NCBI RefSeq assembly: GCF_007859945.1
Contig: NZ_SJPQ01000001.1
Location: 1,240,001 to 1,304,000 of the forward strand
DNA from: Pseudobythopirellula maris
GTDB taxonomy: Bacteria > Planctomycetota > Planctomycetia > Pirellulales > Lacipirellulaceae
DNA length: 64,000 nt
Direction: 5' to 3'
Below are positions 45,905-58,067 of the stretch, piece by piece. How positions within the stretch are numbered: the first letter of the stretch is position 1; each line of letters begins with the position of its first letter. The position numbers and the translations under genes are program-made. The notes beneath the pieces are model-generated. The model had not been told where the DNA came from. It did no database searches and saw nothing but the letters and a program-made list of their open reading frames with translations.

Positions 45905-46153
45905 TTAGCTCCCGGCGGGGTTTTCTTCGACCGAAGAAGTGGGCGAAGCTGCAGGCGGATCGGTTTCGGCTGGCGTTCCGGCGGGCGCTTGGCTGCGCTG
46001 GATCGCGTCGTAGACCTCACTCCGATGCACAGGCACTTCCTTGGGCGCCTCGATGCCTAGTCGCACCTTGTCACCGCGGATTTCCACCACCACGATGGTG
46101 ATGTCGTCGTTGATAACGATGCTCTCGTTTTTCTTCCGCGAGAGAACCAACAT
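45905..46153 (-). CDS. csrA: Carbon storage regulator CsrA
   Basis: An 82-residue RNA-binding dimer subunit. It starts [20 protein letters not shown] and has [20 protein letters not shown], the consensus with Arg44-type and Leu4-type residues that bind GGA in RNA loops. It represses or activates translation of target mRNAs. A tail of about 28 residues ([20 protein letters not shown] onward) extends past the usual end and is probably disordered. A ribosome binding site, AAGGAAAG, precedes the ATG. Confidence 0.95.
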
Positions 46154-47385: not shown

Positions 47386-48078
47386 TCACGGCCCGTACGG
47401 ATGGGCGTAAGGCGCTCGGTAGGTGCTCGGGCCGACCCAGTTGCCGCAGCGGTCGCAGGGGTCTTTGCAACGGGGCGGGTCATTGTGCCACTCGCTCCAG
47501 TAGCTCTCGCCGTCGCAGCCGCCGCAGCCGATCTTGCCAATCAGGCCGCAGGTGACGTGGTTGAGCTCTTCCCCAATACAATCCAGGCCGAACTTCAGCG
47601 AGCCGCCCGCCGCGCATCCGCCGACACAGCAATCTTGGCCGCACTCGCCCGCACAGCCCACCTCGCAACCGCAATCGGGTTCGGCGCAACCGCAGGCCGG
47701 TTCTGCACAGCCGCAACCAGGCTCGCTCGTGTCGCAGCCACAGGGGCCGGTGCAAACGCAGATCTTCGGCCCGCTGCAGTTGCAGTCGGTCCACCGCTTG
47801 AAGGCCCAGGAGCGGCCGTCGACCCCGCAGGTGTCGCCGCACGCGCCGCCGCAAGAATCACCGCAGTCGGCGCTACAGCCGGGCTCGATTGCACAGCCGG
47901 GGTCGGTCGCGCAGCCCGGCTCGGTCACGCAGCCGCAAGCGGCGTGGTGACCGCCGCCATGGATCGCCGCGCAGCCCGGGGCCGCCACAAGGGCTAAGCA
48001 CGCAAGCAGGGCGTAGGTGTTTTGCAAGGCGTTGTGGTTGAGCGTGGTCACTGCCCGTTCCCTCGAAGAGATGGTCAT
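47386..48078 (-). CDS. Cysteine-rich lipoprotein
   Basis: About 230 residues from the ATG at 48078 (open to 48129). A signal peptide with a likely lipobox (LACLALVAAPGC) precedes a mature domain with about 34 Cys, mostly as CGC or PGC units (ACGCVTEPGCATDPGCAIEP, EPGCGCAEPACGCAEP). The C-terminus GNWVGPSTYRAPYAHPYGP is Tyr/Pro-rich. No known family. Metal binding or a disulfide-rich envelope layer are possible. The gene is convergent with tatD, and divergent from the VOC gene. Confidence 0.7.
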   Translation of the reverse strand: MTISSRERAVTTLNHNALQNTYALLACLALVAAPGCAAIHGGGHHAACGCVTEPGCATDPGCAIEPGCSADCGDSCGGACGDTCGVDGRSWAFKRWTDCNCSGPKICVCTGPCGCDTSEPGCGCAEPACGCAEPDCGCEVGCAGECGQDCCVGGCAAGGSLKFGLDCIGEELNHVTCGLIGKIGCGGCDGESYWSEWHNDPPRCKDPCDRCGNWVGPSTYRAPYAHPYGP

Positions 48079-48273
48079 GGGATTGCGTTCGCCCGCCGCG
48101 CGGAGCGTCGCACTCTCATGCCCAGCCATCGGCGCCGTGGGTCCGCACGATTGAGCCGAACCGCTACAATCGTCAAAACATCTTCAGCCGGACGCCGCTT
48201 AAGCAGTCGTGCTAGCAACCGCCCCGATCCCCCCGGCCGCCTCCCCAGCCACACCAACCCCGCCGAACAGAGC

Positions 48274-50016: not shown

Positions 50017-50256
50017 GTGAAAGACCGGCCAAGGTTAAGCGAAGAGCACTACGAGTGGGCCGCCGAAATGACCCGCATTGGCGCCGCCGGCGCCCGCCGC
50101 GCCCAGGAAGAGTCCCGCCGCGCCGGCGTGCCTTGCGTTTACTCCATCAACGGCGTGCTGCACTGGGAGCTGCCGGACGGCAGCCTCACAACGACCGACC
50201 CCGGTGTCTCGCCGCCCGGGGGCGACGACGCTGCGGCCGGCGAACGGCAAGCCTGA
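50017..50256 (+). CDS. Small hypothetical protein
   Basis: A 79-residue protein from a GTG. The middle is a helix (YEWAAEMTRIGAAGARRAQE) followed by VYSINGVLHWELPDGSLTTT, which looks like a small beta hairpin with a conserved-looking ELPDG turn. No family is recognised. It is followed 39 bases later by the phosphatase-cytochrome gene. Confidence 0.55.
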   Translation: MKDRPRLSEEHYEWAAEMTRIGAAGARRAQEESRRAGVPCVYSINGVLHWELPDGSLTTTDPGVSPPGGDDAAAGERQA

Positions 50257-50295: not shown

Positions 50296-51195
50296 ATGAT
50301 GACCCCCCGATGCCTAACGATCGGTCTTGTGTTTCTCCTGAGCGGCGTGGGCGTCCGTGCGGCGGAGTTTGAAACGGTCGCCCCGCTCGCCGACGCGGTG
50401 GAGCACCCGGTCCGGGTTGGCCCACGACTGATCGTCGGCGGCGAGCCGAAAGACGACGCCGCGTTCGCCGCCTTGGCGGCGCAAGGCGTGAAGACCGTGG
50501 TGAGCGTCGACGGCGCCCGGCCCCAGGCCGACCTAGCCGCCAAGCATGGGCTGCGTTACGTGCACGTGCCGATCGGCTACGACGGTTTGCCCGAGTCGGC
50601 GCAGCTGTCGCTCGCACGCGTGGCCAAGGAGATCGACGGGTCCGTGTTCGTCCACTGCCACCACGGCAAGCACCGCGGCCCGGCCGCCGCAGCGATCGTC
50701 GCCCGCTGCCAGGGGCTGGTCGACGTGGAGGGCGCCGAGAGGCTGCTCAACGAGGCGGGCACGAGTCACGACTACGCCGGCCTGTGGCGCGATGTCACGG
50801 CGTTCACGCCGCCGCCCGAGGGCGCCAAGTTGCCGGAGCTCGTCGCCGCGGCCGAGGTCGACTCGCTCGCCGCCGCGATGGCGATGGTCGACCGGGCGTG
50901 GGATCACCTGAAGTTGTGCGAAAAATCGGCCTGGAGTGCGCCGGCCGAGCACCCCGACCTCGTCCCCTCGCGAGAAGCGATTCTGATCCGCGAGGGTCTG
51001 CACGAATCGGTCCGTGCGCTCGAAGGGGGCGACGGGGGCACGGACGAAGCCTTAATCGCCGCGATGCGCGAAGCGGAGATGGTCGCCAAGGAGCTTGAAA
51101 AAAGCCTCGCCAATGGCAACGCCGCAGTTTCAAACCGCTTGTTCGCCACGCTCGCCACGCAGTGCAAAGAATGCCACGCCGGCTACCGCAACTGA
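50296..51195 (+). CDS. Secreted tyrosine-phosphatase-like domain fused to a cytochrome c' type domain
   Basis: A 299-residue exported protein (signal peptide to GVGVRAAEF). Residues about 35-165 are a DSP/BLH-type phosphatase: IVGGEPKDDAAFAALAAQGV KTVVSVDG, then HCHHGKHRG, a C-x5-R active loop with Cys121 and Arg127. From about residue 190 a helical domain ends QCKECHAGYRN; CKECH (290-294) is a heme c site with the C-x-x-C-H-x-x-Y-R pattern of cytochrome c'. The fusion joins a phosphatase-fold enzyme to a heme sensor or electron carrier. The substrate is unknown. A second ATG lies three bases on. Confidence 0.8.
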   Translation: MMTPRCLTIGLVFLLSGVGVRAAEFETVAPLADAVEHPVRVGPRLIVGGEPKDDAAFAALAAQGVKTVVSVDGARPQADLAAKHGLRYVHVPIGYDGLPESAQLSLARVAKEIDGSVFVHCHHGKHRGPAAAAIVARCQGLVDVEGAERLLNEAGTSHDYAGLWRDVTAFTPPPEGAKLPELVAAAEVDSLAAAMAMVDRAWDHLKLCEKSAWSAPAEHPDLVPSREAILIREGLHESVRALEGGDGGTDEALIAAMREAEMVAKELEKSLANGNAAVSNRLFATLATQCKECHAGYRN

Positions 51196-52049: not shown

Positions 52050-53480
52050 GTGAATAACAAGTCGACGGTCGCCTACGACGAGTATGGGCCTTCGCCGGAC
52101 CAGCCGCGTCACGCCTCGTTGACTCACAGCCTCGGACAGATACCGATCGAGGTGCTCGCCAGCCGCCAAGAGGTGGCCGAGGCCGAGCTCAACGAGCGGG
52201 GGGTCACGTTCGCTGTTTACGGCCACAACGACGGCGCCGAGAAGATTTGGCCGTTCGACATCGTGCCACGCCCGATCAGCGGCGAGGAGTGGCGGCCGGT
52301 CGAGGAGGGCCTCAAGCAGCGCATCCGCGCGCTGAACCTGTTCCTCGACGACGTGTACCACGACAAGCACATCCTCAAAGACGGGGTGATCCCCGAGGAG
52401 TTCGTGCTCGGGGCCGAGACTTACCGCCCCCAGTGCGAGGGCCTCAAGCCGCCCGGCGGGGTGTGGACCCACATCACGGGCACCGACCTGATCCGCGACA
52501 CCGACGGCCAGTTCTACGTGCTGGAGGACAACCTGCGTTGCCCCTCGGGCGTGTCGTATGTGCTCGAGAATCGTGAGTTGATGAAGCGGGTTTTGCCCGA
52601 GGTGTTCCAGGGGACGTCGATCGCGCCGGTGGAGAGCTACCCCGACGCGTTGCTCGACACGCTGCTGCAGACCGCCCCGCCCAAGTGCGACGGCCTGCCG
52701 CGCGCCGTGGTGCTGACGCCCGGCCAGTTCAACTCGGCGTTCTTCGAGCACTCCTATCTCGCCCAGCGGATGGGGGTCGATCTCGTGCAAGCCTCGGACC
52801 TTTACGTCGAGGGGGGCCTCGTCTGGATGCGGACCACCCACGGCCCGCAGCGGGTCGACGTGATATACCGCCGCATCGACGACGACTTCTTGGACCCGGT
52901 GAGCTTTCGCGCCGACTCGATGCTCGGCGTGCCCGGGCTGATGCGAGCTTACCGCGAGGGGGGCGTCACCCTGGCCAACGCCCCCGGCGCGGGCATCGCC
53001 GACGACAAGGGCGTGTACGCCTACGTGCCGAAGATCATCGAGTACTACCTGTCGGAAGAAGCGATTCTGCCGAACGTGCCGACCTACGTCTGCTCCGAGC
53101 CCGACCAGTGCCAGTACGTGCTCGACCACCTCAGCGAGTTGGTCATCAAGCCGGCCAACAACTCGGGCGGCTACGGCATCTACTTTGGCCCGACTTCGTC
53201 TCGTGCCGAATTGGAGGAATGCGCGGCGGCGGTCAAAGCCAATCCGCGGAACTACATCGCCCAGCCTCTCGTGACGCTCTCCACGACGCCGACGATCGTC
53301 CCCGGGGGCCTCGCGCCACGCCACGTCGACCTGCGCCCGTTCGTCTTGTACGGCAAAGACTTCTACGTGATGTCGGGGGGCCTGACGCGGGTCGCGTTGA
53401 AGGAGGGCTCGATGGTGGTGAACTCCTCCCAAGGGGGCGGCAGCAAAGACACCTGGGTGCTCAACGGCGCCAGCCAATAG
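52050..53480 (+). CDS. Circularly permuted ATP-grasp (type 2) amidoligase-like protein
   Basis: A 476-residue protein of the DUF404/DUF407 (CP_ATPgrasp) family. Seen: [60 protein letters not shown] followed by [17 protein letters not shown], and [20 protein letters not shown]. The rearranged order of nucleotide-binding segments is the mark of this family. These proteins are thought to form amide or peptide bonds using ATP, on an unknown acceptor (family knowledge and inference). GTG start. First gene of the five-gene cluster. Confidence 0.9.
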
Positions 53481-53601
53481 CGGCCCACCGGCGCCCGCAC
53501 CGCCTTGGCCTCGCGGCGTGAGCGGCCCCGCGATCCACCCACGATGCCCCCTCAGACTTTCCCCTCCCCGTCGCACCGCTAACGAAACGCCCCGCACCAC
53601 G

Positions 53602-54591
53602 ATGCTATGCCGCGTCGCCGATTCACTGCACTGGATGAGCCGCTACGTTGAGCGGGCCGAGAACATTGCGCGCTTCATCGACGTGAACCAGGTGTTGTCA
53701 CTGGGCGGCGTCGGCGTGCAATGGGACCCGCTGATCTTCGCCAGCGGCGACGAAAAGGCGTATAACAAGAAGTACCCCGATTTCTCGCGCGAGAACGTCT
53801 TGCGGTTCCTGCTGTTCGATCGCGAGTACGCTAACTCGGTGGTCAGCTGCGCGAGCCGCGCGCGTGAGAACGCCCGGGCGATCCAGGGCGAGCTCAGCAT
53901 GGGCGTTTGGCACGCCGTCAACCGGCTTTACCTGCGTGTGCGCGACGGCGCCCGCAACGCCGAGGAGGTGATCGCCAACCCGAACTTCTTCCTGGAGCGC
54001 GTCAAACGCTCGTGCCACCAAGTGATGGGCGTGTCGAACGCCACCCTCAGCCGCGACGAGGCCTGGCAGTTCTGCCACCTCGGCACGCTGGTCGAACGGG
54101 CCGACAAAACCTCGCGGATTTTAGACGTCAAGTACTTCACGCTGCTGCCGAATGTGACCGACGTCGGCGGCGCCCTCGACGTGGTGCAATGGTCCGCGCT
54201 CCTCGAAACGACCGGCGCCACGCACATGTACCGCAAGCGGCACGGCAGGATCGACCCCCGCAAGGTGGTCGCCTTCTTGGTGCTCGACGAGCAGTTCCCG
54301 CGTTCGATCCGCTACTGCGTCGAGCAGGCCGAAGACTGCATGCGCGACATCGCCAGCAGCACGGCGCCGGGCGACGGGCCGCTGGCGCAGATCGGTGAGA
54401 TGAGCGTGCGGCTCAACTCGATCGGCGCGGACGAGATCGTCGACACCGGCCTGCACGAGTTCATCGACGACTTCCAGCGGCGGCTCGACTCGTTCAACGA
54501 GTCGCTGTTCGAAGCCTACTTCCACGTGCCGCCCGTGCTGCCCTACGTGCCCGATGGCGCCCAGAGCCAAACCCAGAGCGGCCCCACGTAA
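53602..54591 (+). CDS. Alpha-E domain protein
   Basis: A 329-residue all-helical protein beginning MLCRVADSLHWMSRYVERAE, the alpha-E signature (...WMSRYxERAE). Further conserved parts are YVVSCASRARENARAIQGEL-like NSVVSCASRARENARAIQGE, LVERADKTSRILDVKYF and FPRSIRYCVEQAEDCMRDIA. Its biochemical role is unknown; it always travels with circularly permuted ATP-grasp and transglutaminase genes. Starting at 53602 fits the family; the open frame begins at 53518. Confidence 0.9.
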   Translation: MLCRVADSLHWMSRYVERAENIARFIDVNQVLSLGGVGVQWDPLIFASGDEKAYNKKYPDFSRENVLRFLLFDREYANSVVSCASRARENARAIQGELSMGVWHAVNRLYLRVRDGARNAEEVIANPNFFLERVKRSCHQVMGVSNATLSRDEAWQFCHLGTLVERADKTSRILDVKYFTLLPNVTDVGGALDVVQWSALLETTGATHMYRKRHGRIDPRKVVAFLVLDEQFPRSIRYCVEQAEDCMRDIASSTAPGDGPLAQIGEMSVRLNSIGADEIVDTGLHEFIDDFQRRLDSFNESLFEAYFHVPPVLPYVPDGAQSQTQSGPT

Positions 54592-54713
54592 ACCGGCCGG
54601 CCACCAAGCCGGCAGCCCCCTCTCGCCGAGACGATCCAAGGACGGACCAAGCGACGCCAGAACGACACCCCACGAATCCCCCCCACCCGCGCGCCTCCTT
54701 CCCGCCGCCTCTC

Positions 54714-57700
54714 ATGTCGATCCTCGTCGCCCTCCACCACGAGACCAAGTACAACTACGAGCGCCGCATCACGCTCGGGCCGCAAACGGTGCGGTTGCGC
54801 CCGGCGCCGCACTGCCGCACGCCGATCAAGTCGTACTCACTCTCGATCGAGCCGGAAGACAAGTTCCTCAATTGGCAGCAGGACCCGCACGGCAACTTCC
54901 TTGCGCGGCTCGTGTTCCACGAGCCGACCGACGTGTTCCGGGTGAGCGTTGATCTCGTGGCCGAGATGAAGACGATCAACCCGTTCGAGTTCTTCGTCGA
55001 GGAGTACGCCGACCACTTCCCGTTCGCCTACGAAGAGGAGCTGGCCGACGACCTGCGGCCGTTCCTGCGCACGCTGCCCGAAACGCCGGCGTTCGAGGAG
55101 TACCTGGCGCACATCAACCGCGACCCGCGCAAGACGATCGACTTCCTGGTCGACCTGAACCGGCAGCTCGAGCAAGACATCAGCTACACGATCCGCCTCG
55201 AGCCGGGCGTGCAGACGCCCGAGGAAACGCTCACCAAACGGAGCGGCTCGTGCCGAGACTCGGCGTGGCTGCTGGTGCAGCTGCTGCGGCGTTTGGGGAT
55301 CGCGGCCAGGTTTGTCTCGGGCTACCTGATCCAACTGGCGCCGGACGAGAAGCCGCTCGACGGCCCGGCCGGTCCGTCGGCCGACTTCACCGACCTGCAC
55401 GCCTGGACCGAGGCGTACCTGCCGGGCGCCGGTTGGGTGGGGCTCGACCCAACCTCGGGCCTGCTGGCTGGCGAGGGGCACCTGCCACTGGCCGCCACGC
55501 CGGCCCCGCAAACCGCCGCCCCGATCAGCGGCTGCGTGGAGGACTGCGAGGTCGAGTTCGGCTTCGAGATGTGTATCAAAAGGGTTCATGAAGACCCACG
55601 CGTCACGAAGCCATACACCGACGAGCAGTGGAAAGCGATCGACCGCCAGGGCGCAGAGGTCGACCGCCGCATGGCGCAGGGCGACGTGCGCATGACCATG
55701 GGGGGCGAGCCGACCTTCGTGTCGATCGACGACATGGAGGGCGAGGAGTGGAACAGCGCCGCGGTGGGCCCCGTCAAGCAGAAGCTCTCGGACCAACTGG
55801 TCCGCCGGCTCAAGAACCGCTACGCCCCGGGCGGACTGCTGCACTTCGGCCAGGGCAAGTGGTACCCGGGCGAGTCGTTGCCCCGCTGGGCGTTCAGCTG
55901 CCTGTGGCGGACCGACGGCGAACCGATCTGGTCGAACCCCGACCTGCTGGCGGACATCTCGACCAAAGGCGAGTCGGCATTGCCCGAGGCCTCGGCTTTG
56001 CTCTCGGGTTTGTGCGAACGGCTCGAGGTCGAAGACTACTGGGTCCGCCCCGCCTACGAAGACCCGCTGCACCTGGTCGCCATCGAGCAGCAAGCGCCGA
56101 TCAACGTGGACGTCAGCGAGTTCGATCTCGAGGCGCCCGAAGAACGCCGCCGGCTGGCCAACGCCATCCAGCGCGGCCTCACCCGTCCGGTGAGCTACGT
56201 GCTGCCGCTCACCAAGGCGTGGTGGCAGGCCAAGCCGCGTTGGACCAGCGGCCCTTGGCCCGTGCGCTCGGAGCGGCTCGTGCTGATCCCGGGCGACTCG
56301 CCAGCCGGCCTGCGGTTGTCGCTCGACAGCTTGCCGAAGGTCGGCAAGAACGACTTGGGGAACGTGTTCCCGGTCGACCCGTTCCTGCCCCGTTTCCGGC
56401 TGCCGGGCCACGAGCACATGCTGGCCGCCGCCCGCCAACGGCGTGAGGAGTTTGCCGCAACGATCACCCAGCAAACGCGTGATCCGGCCGCTCAGCGGTT
56501 CGAGGCGCCGCACGAGCCCGACGACGCCCCGTTCACGCCGCTCGACACGATCCGCACCGCGCTCTGCATCGAGCCGCGCAACGGTCAGCTGCACGTCTTC
56601 ATGCCGCCGACCAATTCGCTGGAGGACTACCTCGAACTCGTGGCCGCGATCGAAGACACGGCCGAGGACCTGCAGACCCCCGTCGTGATCGAGGGCTACC
56701 TGCCGCCGCACGACCACCGTGTGCAGACGATCAAGGTGACGCCCGACCCCGGCGTGATCGAGGTCAACGTCCAGCCGGCCGCCAACTGGGAGGAGCTCAA
56801 GACGGTCGTCGGCGGCGTGTACGAGGACGCCCGGCAAACGCGTCTCGGCACGGAGAAATTCCAGATCGACGGCCGCCACAGCGGCACCGGTGGCGGCAAC
56901 CACTTAGTGATCGGCGGCCCCACGCCGGCCGACAGCCCGTTTGTCCGTCGCCCCGACCTGCTGCGCAGCCTGATCGGGTTCTGGAACAACCACCCGTCTC
57001 TCTCGTACCTGTTCTCGAGCCTCTTCATCGGCCCCACGAGCCAGGCGCCGCGGGTCGACGAGTCGCGCGGCGACGCGATGTACGAGCTCGACCTGGCGTT
57101 CAGCCAAGTGCCCGAGCCCGACGAGAGCGACTCGGTGCCGCCCTGGATGGTCGACCGCCTGTTCCGCCACCTGCTCACCGACACGACCGGCAACACGCAC
57201 CGCGCCGAGATCTGCATCGACAAGATGTTCTCGCCCGACTCGTCGACCGGGCGCCTGGGGCTGGTCGAGCTGCGGGCGTTCGAGATGCCGCCGCACCCGC
57301 GGATGAGCCTCGTGCAACAACTCCTGGTTCGGTCGCTGATCACGATGTTCTGGGAGCGTCCCTACCGCGAGAAACCGATCCGCTGGGGCACGGCGATCCA
57401 CGACCGCTTTATGTTGCCGCACTACTTGCGGAAGGACTTCCGCGCGATCCTCCGCGAGCTCGGCTCGGCGGGCCTGCCGATGGACGAGGCTTGGTTCGAG
57501 CCGCACTTCGAGTTCCGCTGCCCGTTCATCGGCCAGTTCGAGCGTGAGGGGATCGAGGTCGAGCTCCGCACGGCCATCGAGCCTTGGTACGTGCTCGGCG
57601 AAGAGCAAGGCGGCGGCGGCACGACGCGCTTCGTTGACTCTTCGGTCGAACGCCTCCAGGTGAAGGTCGACGGCTTGGTCGGCGATCGCTTTGTGCTGGC

Positions 57701-58067
57701 TTGCAACGGCAACCTCTTGCCGCTCACCCCGACCGACGTCCACGGCCAGTGGGTCTGCGGCGTCCGTTACCGCTCTTGGCTGCCGCCGAGCTGCTTGCAA
57801 CCGATGTTGCCGGTGAACACGCCGCTAACGATCGACCTGGTCGACCAGAACAACGGCCGCTCGTTGGGAGGCGCCCAGTACTTCGTGGACCACCCGGGCG
57901 GGGTGAACTCGAACAGCTACCCGATCAACGCGTTGGAAGCGGAATCCCGCCGCAGCGCGCGGTTCTGGGACATGGGGCACACCGGGGGTTCGATGTGCCC
58001 GAACAGCGTGATTCCCGATCCCGATTTCCCTGTGACCCTCGACCTCAGGCGTTGCAACGCGTGGTGA
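54714..58067 (+). CDS. Transglutaminase-like protein with DUF2126 C-terminal region
   Basis: An 1117-residue protein. Residues 1-270 are a transglutaminase-like peptidase with the triad Cys180 (GSCRDSA), His229 (LHAW) and Asp245 (LDPTS), preceded by the family's N-terminal beta domain (LHHETKYNYERRITLGPQTV). From about residue 300 comes DUF2126: MTMGGEPTFVSIDDMEGEEW, GGLLHFGQGKWYPGESLPRW, ARQTRLGTEKFQIDGRHSGT and ending GGSMCPNSVIPDPDFPVTLD. This long region may bind nucleotide or substrate, but its activity is unknown. Transglutaminase-fold proteins here would cleave or exchange amide bonds. Third gene of the cluster. Confidence 0.92.
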   Translation: MSILVALHHETKYNYERRITLGPQTVRLRPAPHCRTPIKSYSLSIEPEDKFLNWQQDPHGNFLARLVFHEPTDVFRVSVDLVAEMKTINPFEFFVEEYADHFPFAYEEELADDLRPFLRTLPETPAFEEYLAHINRDPRKTIDFLVDLNRQLEQDISYTIRLEPGVQTPEETLTKRSGSCRDSAWLLVQLLRRLGIAARFVSGYLIQLAPDEKPLDGPAGPSADFTDLHAWTEAYLPGAGWVGLDPTSGLLAGEGHLPLAATPAPQTAAPISGCVEDCEVEFGFEMCIKRVHEDPRVTKPYTDEQWKAIDRQGAEVDRRMAQGDVRMTMGGEPTFVSIDDMEGEEWNSAAVGPVKQKLSDQLVRRLKNRYAPGGLLHFGQGKWYPGESLPRWAFSCLWRTDGEPIWSNPDLLADISTKGESALPEASALLSGLCERLEVEDYWVRPAYEDPLHLVAIEQQAPINVDVSEFDLEAPEERRRLANAIQRGLTRPVSYVLPLTKAWWQAKPRWTSGPWPVRSERLVLIPGDSPAGLRLSLDSLPKVGKNDLGNVFPVDPFLPRFRLPGHEHMLAAARQRREEFAATITQQTRDPAAQRFEAPHEPDDAPFTPLDTIRTALCIEPRNGQLHVFMPPTNSLEDYLELVAAIEDTAEDLQTPVVIEGYLPPHDHRVQTIKVTPDPGVIEVNVQPAANWEELKTVVGGVYEDARQTRLGTEKFQIDGRHSGTGGGNHLVIGGPTPADSPFVRRPDLLRSLIGFWNNHPSLSYLFSSLFIGPTSQAPRVDESRGDAMYELDLAFSQVPEPDESDSVPPWMVDRLFRHLLTDTTGNTHRAEICIDKMFSPDSSTGRLGLVELRAFEMPPHPRMSLVQQLLVRSLITMFWERPYREKPIRWGTAIHDRFMLPHYLRKDFRAILRELGSAGLPMDEAWFEPHFEFRCPFIGQFEREGIEVELRTAIEPWYVLGEEQGGGGTTRFVDSSVERLQVKVDGLVGDRFVLACNGNLLPLTPTDVHGQWVCGVRYRSWLPPSCLQPMLPVNTPLTIDLVDQNNGRSLGGAQYFVDHPGGVNSNSYPINALEAESRRSARFWDMGHTGGSMCPNSVIPDPDFPVTLDLRRCNAW

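Follow-up and report, generated by a model that had tools for sequence, protein, structure and literature searches.

Oxidation of the catalytic thiol, normally via diffusible oxidants, is a known switch of cysteine phosphatases, and the known class II cytochromes c of the c-556 type are small free-standing carriers. Several described systems of these two kinds come close to the protein considered here. On the phosphatase side, these are (i) TpbA of Pseudomonas aeruginosa, for which, to our knowledge, no heme domain is known, (ii) the DUF442/BLH domains and (iii) Siw14 and its relatives, the PFA-DSPs, which are eukaryotic inositol-pyrophosphate phosphatases. On the heme side, they include cytochrome b562, which binds its heme non-covalently, and the NaxLS cytochrome of Kuenenia, itself a planctomycete. 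An excerpt of the TpbA crystal paper supports Asp105 as the general acid, the D105A change costing 53% of efficiency (PMC4409338). Cytochrome b562 is described as low-spin with the axial ligands His102 and Met7 in an extract of PMC7864044, and part of the text of PMC11897245 gives NaxLS as a binder of nitric oxide.

The locus lies in a stretch of 64,000 nucleotides from Pseudobythopirellula maris (hereafter the window; the genome comprises 5.07 Mb in six contigs) and joins a protein tyrosine phosphatase (PTP) half to a class II cytochrome half in a single chain. Specifically, the gene occupies positions 50296..51195 of the + strand, on which all features given below are also found, starts with ATG and encodes 299 amino acids followed by a stop codon; full-length homologues exist. 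Residues 1-22 (MMTPRCLTIGLVFLLSGVGVRA; 50296..50361) form a probable signal peptide, as the N-terminus MMTPRCLTIGLVFLLSGVGVRA|AEF resembles a cleavable one by eye (not by program), and residues 1-20 have a mean pLDDT of 49 in the predicted structure. The secreted protein with a signal peptide that had been proposed in the initial annotation is, on this reading by eye of the N-terminal sequence, likely. By a crude rule applied to the N-termini of 81 loci, 23 have a lipobox-like signal, 54 some other hydrophobic stretch and 4 neither, and export of the family protein is likely as far as its sequence indicates. A PTP/DUSP cysteine phosphatase fold follows (residues 25-175; 50368..50820; assigned from the model, Foldseek and VIA), with Asp96 (50581..50583) as candidate general acid and the catalytic loop HCHHGKHR at residues 120-127 (50653..50676), which contains Cys121 and Arg127. 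The four-helix class II cytochrome c domain (residues 188-299; 50857..51192; assigned from the model, PF01322 and VIA) carries Met195 (50878..50880), the predicted distal axial heme ligand, and the heme-attachment motif CKECHAGYR at residues 290-298 (51163..51189), with His294 as the putative proximal ligand; the chain ends in CKECHAGYRN. Both the C-x5-R loop (CHHGKHR) and the C-terminal motif (C290, H294, R298) are present where the initial annotation had placed them.

When the window protein is searched alone against Pfam, PF22785 (PTP family) matches residues 56-130 at E 1.2e-5 and PF01322 (Cytochrom_C_2) matches residues 255-298 at E 0.0048, both below the gathering cut-off (18.3 bits versus 26.5 in the case of PF01322), and its three best Pfam PTP matches, which together cover residues 44-141, are all sub-threshold; no Pfam family reaches its gathering cut-off with this protein. 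The gathering score of PF01322 is exceeded by the members L076 (28.9), G023 (28.8) and G012 (27.9). In a family alignment of the window protein and 24 relatives, PF22785 and PF01322 each match 23 of the 25 sequences at E<=0.1, and with this alignment both domain assignments become firm at the level of sequence profiles. A scan of the window protein with Pfam and NCBIfam gave half-domain matches only and no model covering the chain; therefore, such genes likely carry partial names in databases.

The AlphaFold2 model (81 sequences; mean pLDDT 92.8, pTM 0.87) shows a PTP fold followed by four helices (190-210, 224-244, 251-272 and 276-297). The two-domain architecture of the initial annotation is thus borne out, by Pfam matches to both halves and by both folds in a confident model, and the check it had named, a four-helix heme domain in a structure prediction, was run and the domain was found. 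With the whole model, Foldseek places TpbA (4r0s) first at E 6.1e-6, the next protein being the DUF442 structure 3gxh at 1.1e-5, and VIA gives DUSP23 (2img, Z 16.7), 3gxh (Z 16.5) and TpbA (4r0s, Z 16.3) as tied. In the PDB, the family profile matches TpbA at 1.1e-8, and its matches to chains of cytochrome c' and to cytochrome b562 begin at 1.7e-4 and 0.0013, respectively. Because the PTP half fills the VIA list of the whole model, the heme half was folded (pLDDT 92.4) and searched separately; that a given family is missing from such lists carries no weight. Foldseek then returns nothing at E<=0.001 for the heme half, with cytochromes c' at the head of its list, and VIA ranks the Kusta0087/0088 cytochrome 6r6o first (Z 14.1, rmsd 2.2, 103 aligned residues), with many forms of cytochrome b562 near Z 13. 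VIA values of Z 13-14 are, for a helical bundle, near the level that the tool itself calls common, and so the case for a heme domain rests jointly on the fold, the motif and the conserved ligand.

Conservation of the two sites was assessed across the family. From 170 hits, 166 with fewer than 60 gap columns out of 263 were kept and reduced to 143 members at less than 90% identity, a filter which favours members with both halves; the set omits the loci L163-L185. Cys121, Gly124 and Arg127 are found in all 143 non-redundant members, His126 in 142 and His120 in 141, and Met195 is likewise invariant (143/143), although it was absent from every search pattern. CxxCH and Arg298 are present in 142 of the 143, the exception (L197) being a gap where the sequence runs off its contig, and CxxCH is mostly followed by x-x-[YFH]-R. 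At least 80 loci were gathered with the patterns CHHGxHR[GS]P and Y[VI]H[IL]P[IHF]GY[DS], which bias their loop residues. In the 73 non-redundant members from the unbiased whole-genome protein/profile search, Cys121, Arg127 and Met195 are again without exception (73/73), and H122 is kept in 64 of these 73, H123 in 69 and Asp96 in 54. A chance occurrence of the motifs is rejected by their joint conservation in the 143 non-redundant members. Asp96, which aligns with TpbA Asp105 in two alignments, is Asp in 117 of the 143 members and Ser, Asn, Gly, Gln, Arg, Lys or another residue in the other 26; in these, another acid may serve, or the activity may be a different one, so that some of them may not be ordinary phosphatases. 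Among the loci left out, L163-L182 (L168 in the window's own genome) represent a recurrent planctomycete family of about 300-360 amino acids with a class II heme motif at the C-terminus and a long N-terminal half in which neither CxxCH nor a PTP loop was seen by eye; given the latter, this family was set aside as different from the PTP-cytochrome.

The invariant methionine bears directly on the type of heme. In the VIA alignments with cytochrome b562, residues 8..117 of the heme-half model are paired with residues 1..106 of the b562 chain, whereby Met195 (Met14 of the model) corresponds to b562 Met7 and His294 (His113 of the model) to b562 His102, a correspondence which assumes no gaps near the ends, as VIA states only where the aligned ranges begin and finish. 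The sequence-profile match to b562 is three residues off (profile position 164 lies at b562 residue 7, Met195 being position 161), and the Met7 correspondence thus rests on the structural ranges. In the alignment with 6r6o the ranges put the position of Met195 on residue 32, to which the names of the deposited C32 mutants refer; Cys32 is the heme ligand of that protein. An invariant Met195 at the position of b562 Met7 makes a low-spin His/Met heme likelier than a cytochrome c'; as judged from the model, a six-coordinate, low-spin state resembling that of c-556 and b562 is probable, and not the open gas-binding site of a cytochrome c'. The label of cytochrome c' type in the initial annotation is corrected in one respect: the class II four-helix domain stands, but cytochrome c' proper has no distal Met ligand, and here an invariant methionine sits at the ligand position.

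The PTP-cytochrome family is present in 135 of 392 Planctomycetota genomes, at 136 places, at E<=2e-36, and 227 of the 392 have any family match at E<=0.001; the weaker matches that were inspected (L186-L193) are, for the most part, PTPs lacking a heme motif. Of the 136 places, 131 extend at least as far as position 259 of the 263 in the model, and the remaining five either run into contig ends (L194, L195, L197) or are complete on inspection (L196, L145). In the 59 genomes nearest to the window, a figure that counts its own, a match of any kind occurs in 29 and a full-length member in 25; a misassembled or frameshifted fusion private to the window's genome is accordingly rejected. Named carriers include Blastopirellula marina DSM 3645, Lacipirellula limnantheis and Rhodopirellula rubra. 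Scattered members occur under other phylum labels (Bacteroidales, Hydrogenedentota, Sumerlaeota, Lentisphaeria), nearly all in MAGs and with labels as deposited, and the gene was confirmed in each of 10 genomes so labelled. For one such carrier, G455 (Verrucomicrobia SCGC, locus L081), 145 genomes of its phylum gave a single match at E<=1e-20, namely G455 itself. The window's genome additionally encodes a second, short PTP-like protein (L021; G000:C1:1009129-1009524) with the loop HCKSGKRAG and without a heme motif.

The two halves also occur as neighbours. In two loci (L186 and L187) the PTP gene lacks the heme tail, and the next frame on its strand encodes a class II cytochrome that has both CxxCH and the Met of helix 1 (E 6.5e-5 and 6.8e-7 with the profile, from a small set); all four proteins show, by eye, a lipoprotein-type (lipobox-like) signal. 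In L186 the PTP gene spans 611-1267 and the cytochrome runs from 1351, its ATG lying 83 bases past the PTP stop, while in L187 the apparent GTG start of the cytochrome overlaps the PTP stop codon; this stop codon is the TGA that lies inside the match in G189. As the halves are kept as adjacent genes in two genomes, the partnership survives unfused, and it is the pairing of PTP and cytochrome itself that seems to be under selection. Moreover, the pairwise identities of the two halves correlate (r 0.49, with none of 1000 permutations as high), a co-divergence which shows, for the sequences compared, joint inheritance and says nothing on function. One heme-less relative (L188), which lies near a contig end, shares the loop and shows no cytochrome.

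Other domains join the pair in various members, where fusions were counted only with Pfam domain support. An alkaline phosphatase domain (PF00245) is part of the chain in L076 and L102, and in L054, L063, L097 and L108 it is encoded by the gene directly upstream on the same strand. At 6 of at least 80 loci (fusions in 2), this link amounts to an observation and not a tested enrichment. Fused ahead of the PTP-cytochrome are a glutathione peroxidase (L155, L157), a nucleoside transporter (L146) and a Na/Ca exchanger (L149, whose phosphatase loop diverges to TCETGRDR), and further fusions involve a 3-keto-disaccharide hydrolase with GDSL (L032) and NPCBM (L033), NPCBM genes also lying just upstream in L086 and L050. 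In the very long frames of GC-rich loci (L143, L144, L147, L148 and others), most of the upstream part was taken, by eye, to be reading frame without support. A hand-picked set was scanned from 47 co-directional close neighbours, some of which are family genes. Glycos_transf_3 is the scanned representative of a nearby gene common to seven loci, and inositol monophosphatase that of a nearby gene common to five others. ApbE (L075) and a FAD-dependent protein (L044) are single cases, the neighbour in L040 matched nothing in Pfam, and transposase, transglutaminase-like, Cohesin, FAA hydrolase and DeoR and AraC regulator neighbours have, by eye, no obvious tie to phosphate or redox chemistry. Taken without an enrichment test, the fusions and neighbours hint at the handling of phosphoesters in the envelope. 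No constant operon was found, the commonest neighbour cluster occurring in 10 of at least 80 loci (the family gene was caught in 69), and tblastn at 1e-4 with the M42 peptidase and YjbQ that neighbour the gene in the window matched nothing within the limited flank of 132 other loci.

Four further features of the window are recorded in their own right. Just upstream of the PTP-cytochrome gene, at 50017-50256 (+), lies a small ORF of 79 amino acids with a GTG start, which we take to resemble a short conserved planctomycete protein. The frame at 47386-48129 (-) encodes 35 cysteines in 247 residues, with repeats such as GCAEPDCGC, and is possibly exported by eye. By eye as well, 45905-46153 (-) resembles a CsrA-type RNA-binding regulator, and a row of three genes at 52050-58067 (+) resembles a cluster of circularly permuted ATP-grasp, alpha-E and transglutaminase.

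Computation gives directly the two predicted folds, their motifs, the joint conservation of these, the split pairs and the match in ligand position. The reading that is favoured on these grounds, held tentatively and at somewhat under an even chance, is that of an exported, redox-controlled TpbA-like phosphatase with a His/Met class II cytochrome, the two being coupled via Cys121. The exported protein would fold outside the cytoplasm, where the cytochrome c assembly machinery would add heme at CKECH; the window's genome has one match over cut-off to PF01578 (cytochrome c assembly). Cys121 would then attack a phosphate ester, with the phosphate gripped by Arg127 and the loop backbone and the leaving group protonated, in most members, by Asp96. 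Phosphoester hydrolysis and heme attachment are both what knowledge of the respective families would lead one to expect. A single covalent heme with the ligands His294 and Met195, six-coordinate and low-spin, would be suited to pass or hold an electron and not to bind a gas, and the redox state would be sensed or set by the heme half, which would place the phosphatase under the control of redox conditions in the cell envelope. Coupling could proceed, in either direction, via electron exchange with the oxidation-prone thiolate of Cys121 or via a conformational effect on it that depends on the heme state. Both the redox control and its direction are what we infer. As substrate role, the scavenging of phosphoesters in the envelope is a best guess from context. 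Against the phosphatase model stand the loss of Asp96 in 26 of 143 members, the heme-less L188 with the same loop, and the lack of a conserved operon that gives a substrate or signal. Tuning of the enzyme by heme, as raised in the initial annotation, is plausible, the invariant Met195 at the ligand position weakening 'ligand state' as the signal and leaving redox state.

Three other explanations start from the same architecture. The PTP fold could carry an oxidoreductase or sulfur transferase, in which the loop holds a sulfur species or oxyanion such as persulfide, thiosulfate or arsenate, with the cytochrome moving the electrons; a chain in which both a cysteine and a heme motif are invariant would suit such an electron-coupled thiol enzyme. 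BLH_phosphatase matches 16 of the 25 aligned members at E<=0.1, the window protein has a weak match to NF040641 (NCBIfam, sulfur transferase/dioxygenase Blh; E 3.1e-4, 19.7 of 625 bits) and one to PF04273 (DUF442/BLH) at E 0.12, and 3gxh ranks beside TpbA in the structure searches; in addition, Asp96 is missing in the 26 members and two members are fused to glutathione peroxidase. However, the phosphatase profiles outscore BLH in the set of 25 (best E 3.1e-7 for PTP-NADK and 4.8e-7 for PTP-SAK versus 4.3e-4), TpbA is the best match by both Foldseek and sequence profile, and Asp96 is kept in 117 of 143, so that sulfur or oxyanion chemistry is considered unlikely.

A gas sensor, in which a five-coordinate heme of the cytochrome c' type binds NO or CO and thereby regulates the phosphatase, would accord with the PF01322 matches and with the cytochrome c' structures that lead the Foldseek list of the heme half (none of them at E<=0.001), but Met195, invariant and at the position of b562 Met7, would fill the distal site, and the 6r6o alignment places the same position on residue 32, that of the deposited C32 mutants; this explanation is very unlikely. 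Regulation might also be absent altogether, with a scavenging envelope phosphatase and an electron carrier merely sharing an anchor and an export signal. The diversity of the fusions (alkaline phosphatase, NPCBM, sugar hydrolase with GDSL, nucleoside transporter, Na/Ca exchanger) suggests envelope modules strung together, and the failure to find a constant operon agrees with this, yet none of the other fusions seen comes near the constancy of the pairing of PTP and cytochrome, the genes of which, where split, are still adjacent; such a mere tethering is, on balance, quite unlikely.

Should the redox-controlled phosphatase be the true account, a phosphatase with a built-in electron carrier would amount to hard-wired switching by thiol oxidation, in an architecture that is common in Planctomycetota in both fused and split forms. 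A wider proposal, possible and still somewhat unlikely, is that of phylum-wide heme-wired cysteine enzymes, in which electrons would pass between a respiratory or extracellular redox pool and the PTP catalytic cysteine via the His/Met heme, either switching phosphoester hydrolysis or driving redox chemistry on an oxyanion or sulfur species bound to the cysteine.

Compared with the known systems, the PTP-cytochrome is a TpbA-like front with a c-556-like rear, a combination that was not found described in the openly licensed literature, which given that scope is weak evidence. TpbA (PA3885; structures 4r0s and 2m3v) shares the PTP/DUSP fold, the HCxHGxxR loop (HCKHGNNR in TpbA versus HCHHGKHR here) and the aligned Asp, at about 23-26% identity over the domain, but the 218-residue TpbA chain is matched over the PTP half only. 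The DUF442/BLH domains (PF04273, 3gxh, NF040641) have the same fold (VIA Z 16.5), although their profile match is weaker than that of the phosphatases and the 156-residue chain of 3gxh covers the PTP half alone. Siw14 and the PFA-DSPs (6byf and the 7mod series) match in fold at a VIA Z of about 14-15, again in the PTP half only, and their loops likewise end in GKHR. On the heme side, NaxLS (Kusta0087/Kusta0088; 6r6m, 6r6n and 6r6o) is the best VIA match of the heme half, whereas it is a free heterodimer and has, going by the names of the mutants, Cys and not Met at the aligned position. Cytochrome b562 serves as the structural yardstick, the helix-1 Met lying at its Met7 position. Finally, the four-helix bundle and the C-terminal CxxCH are those of the class II cytochromes c of the c-556 type, and in the PTP-cytochrome this domain is the tail of an enzyme.
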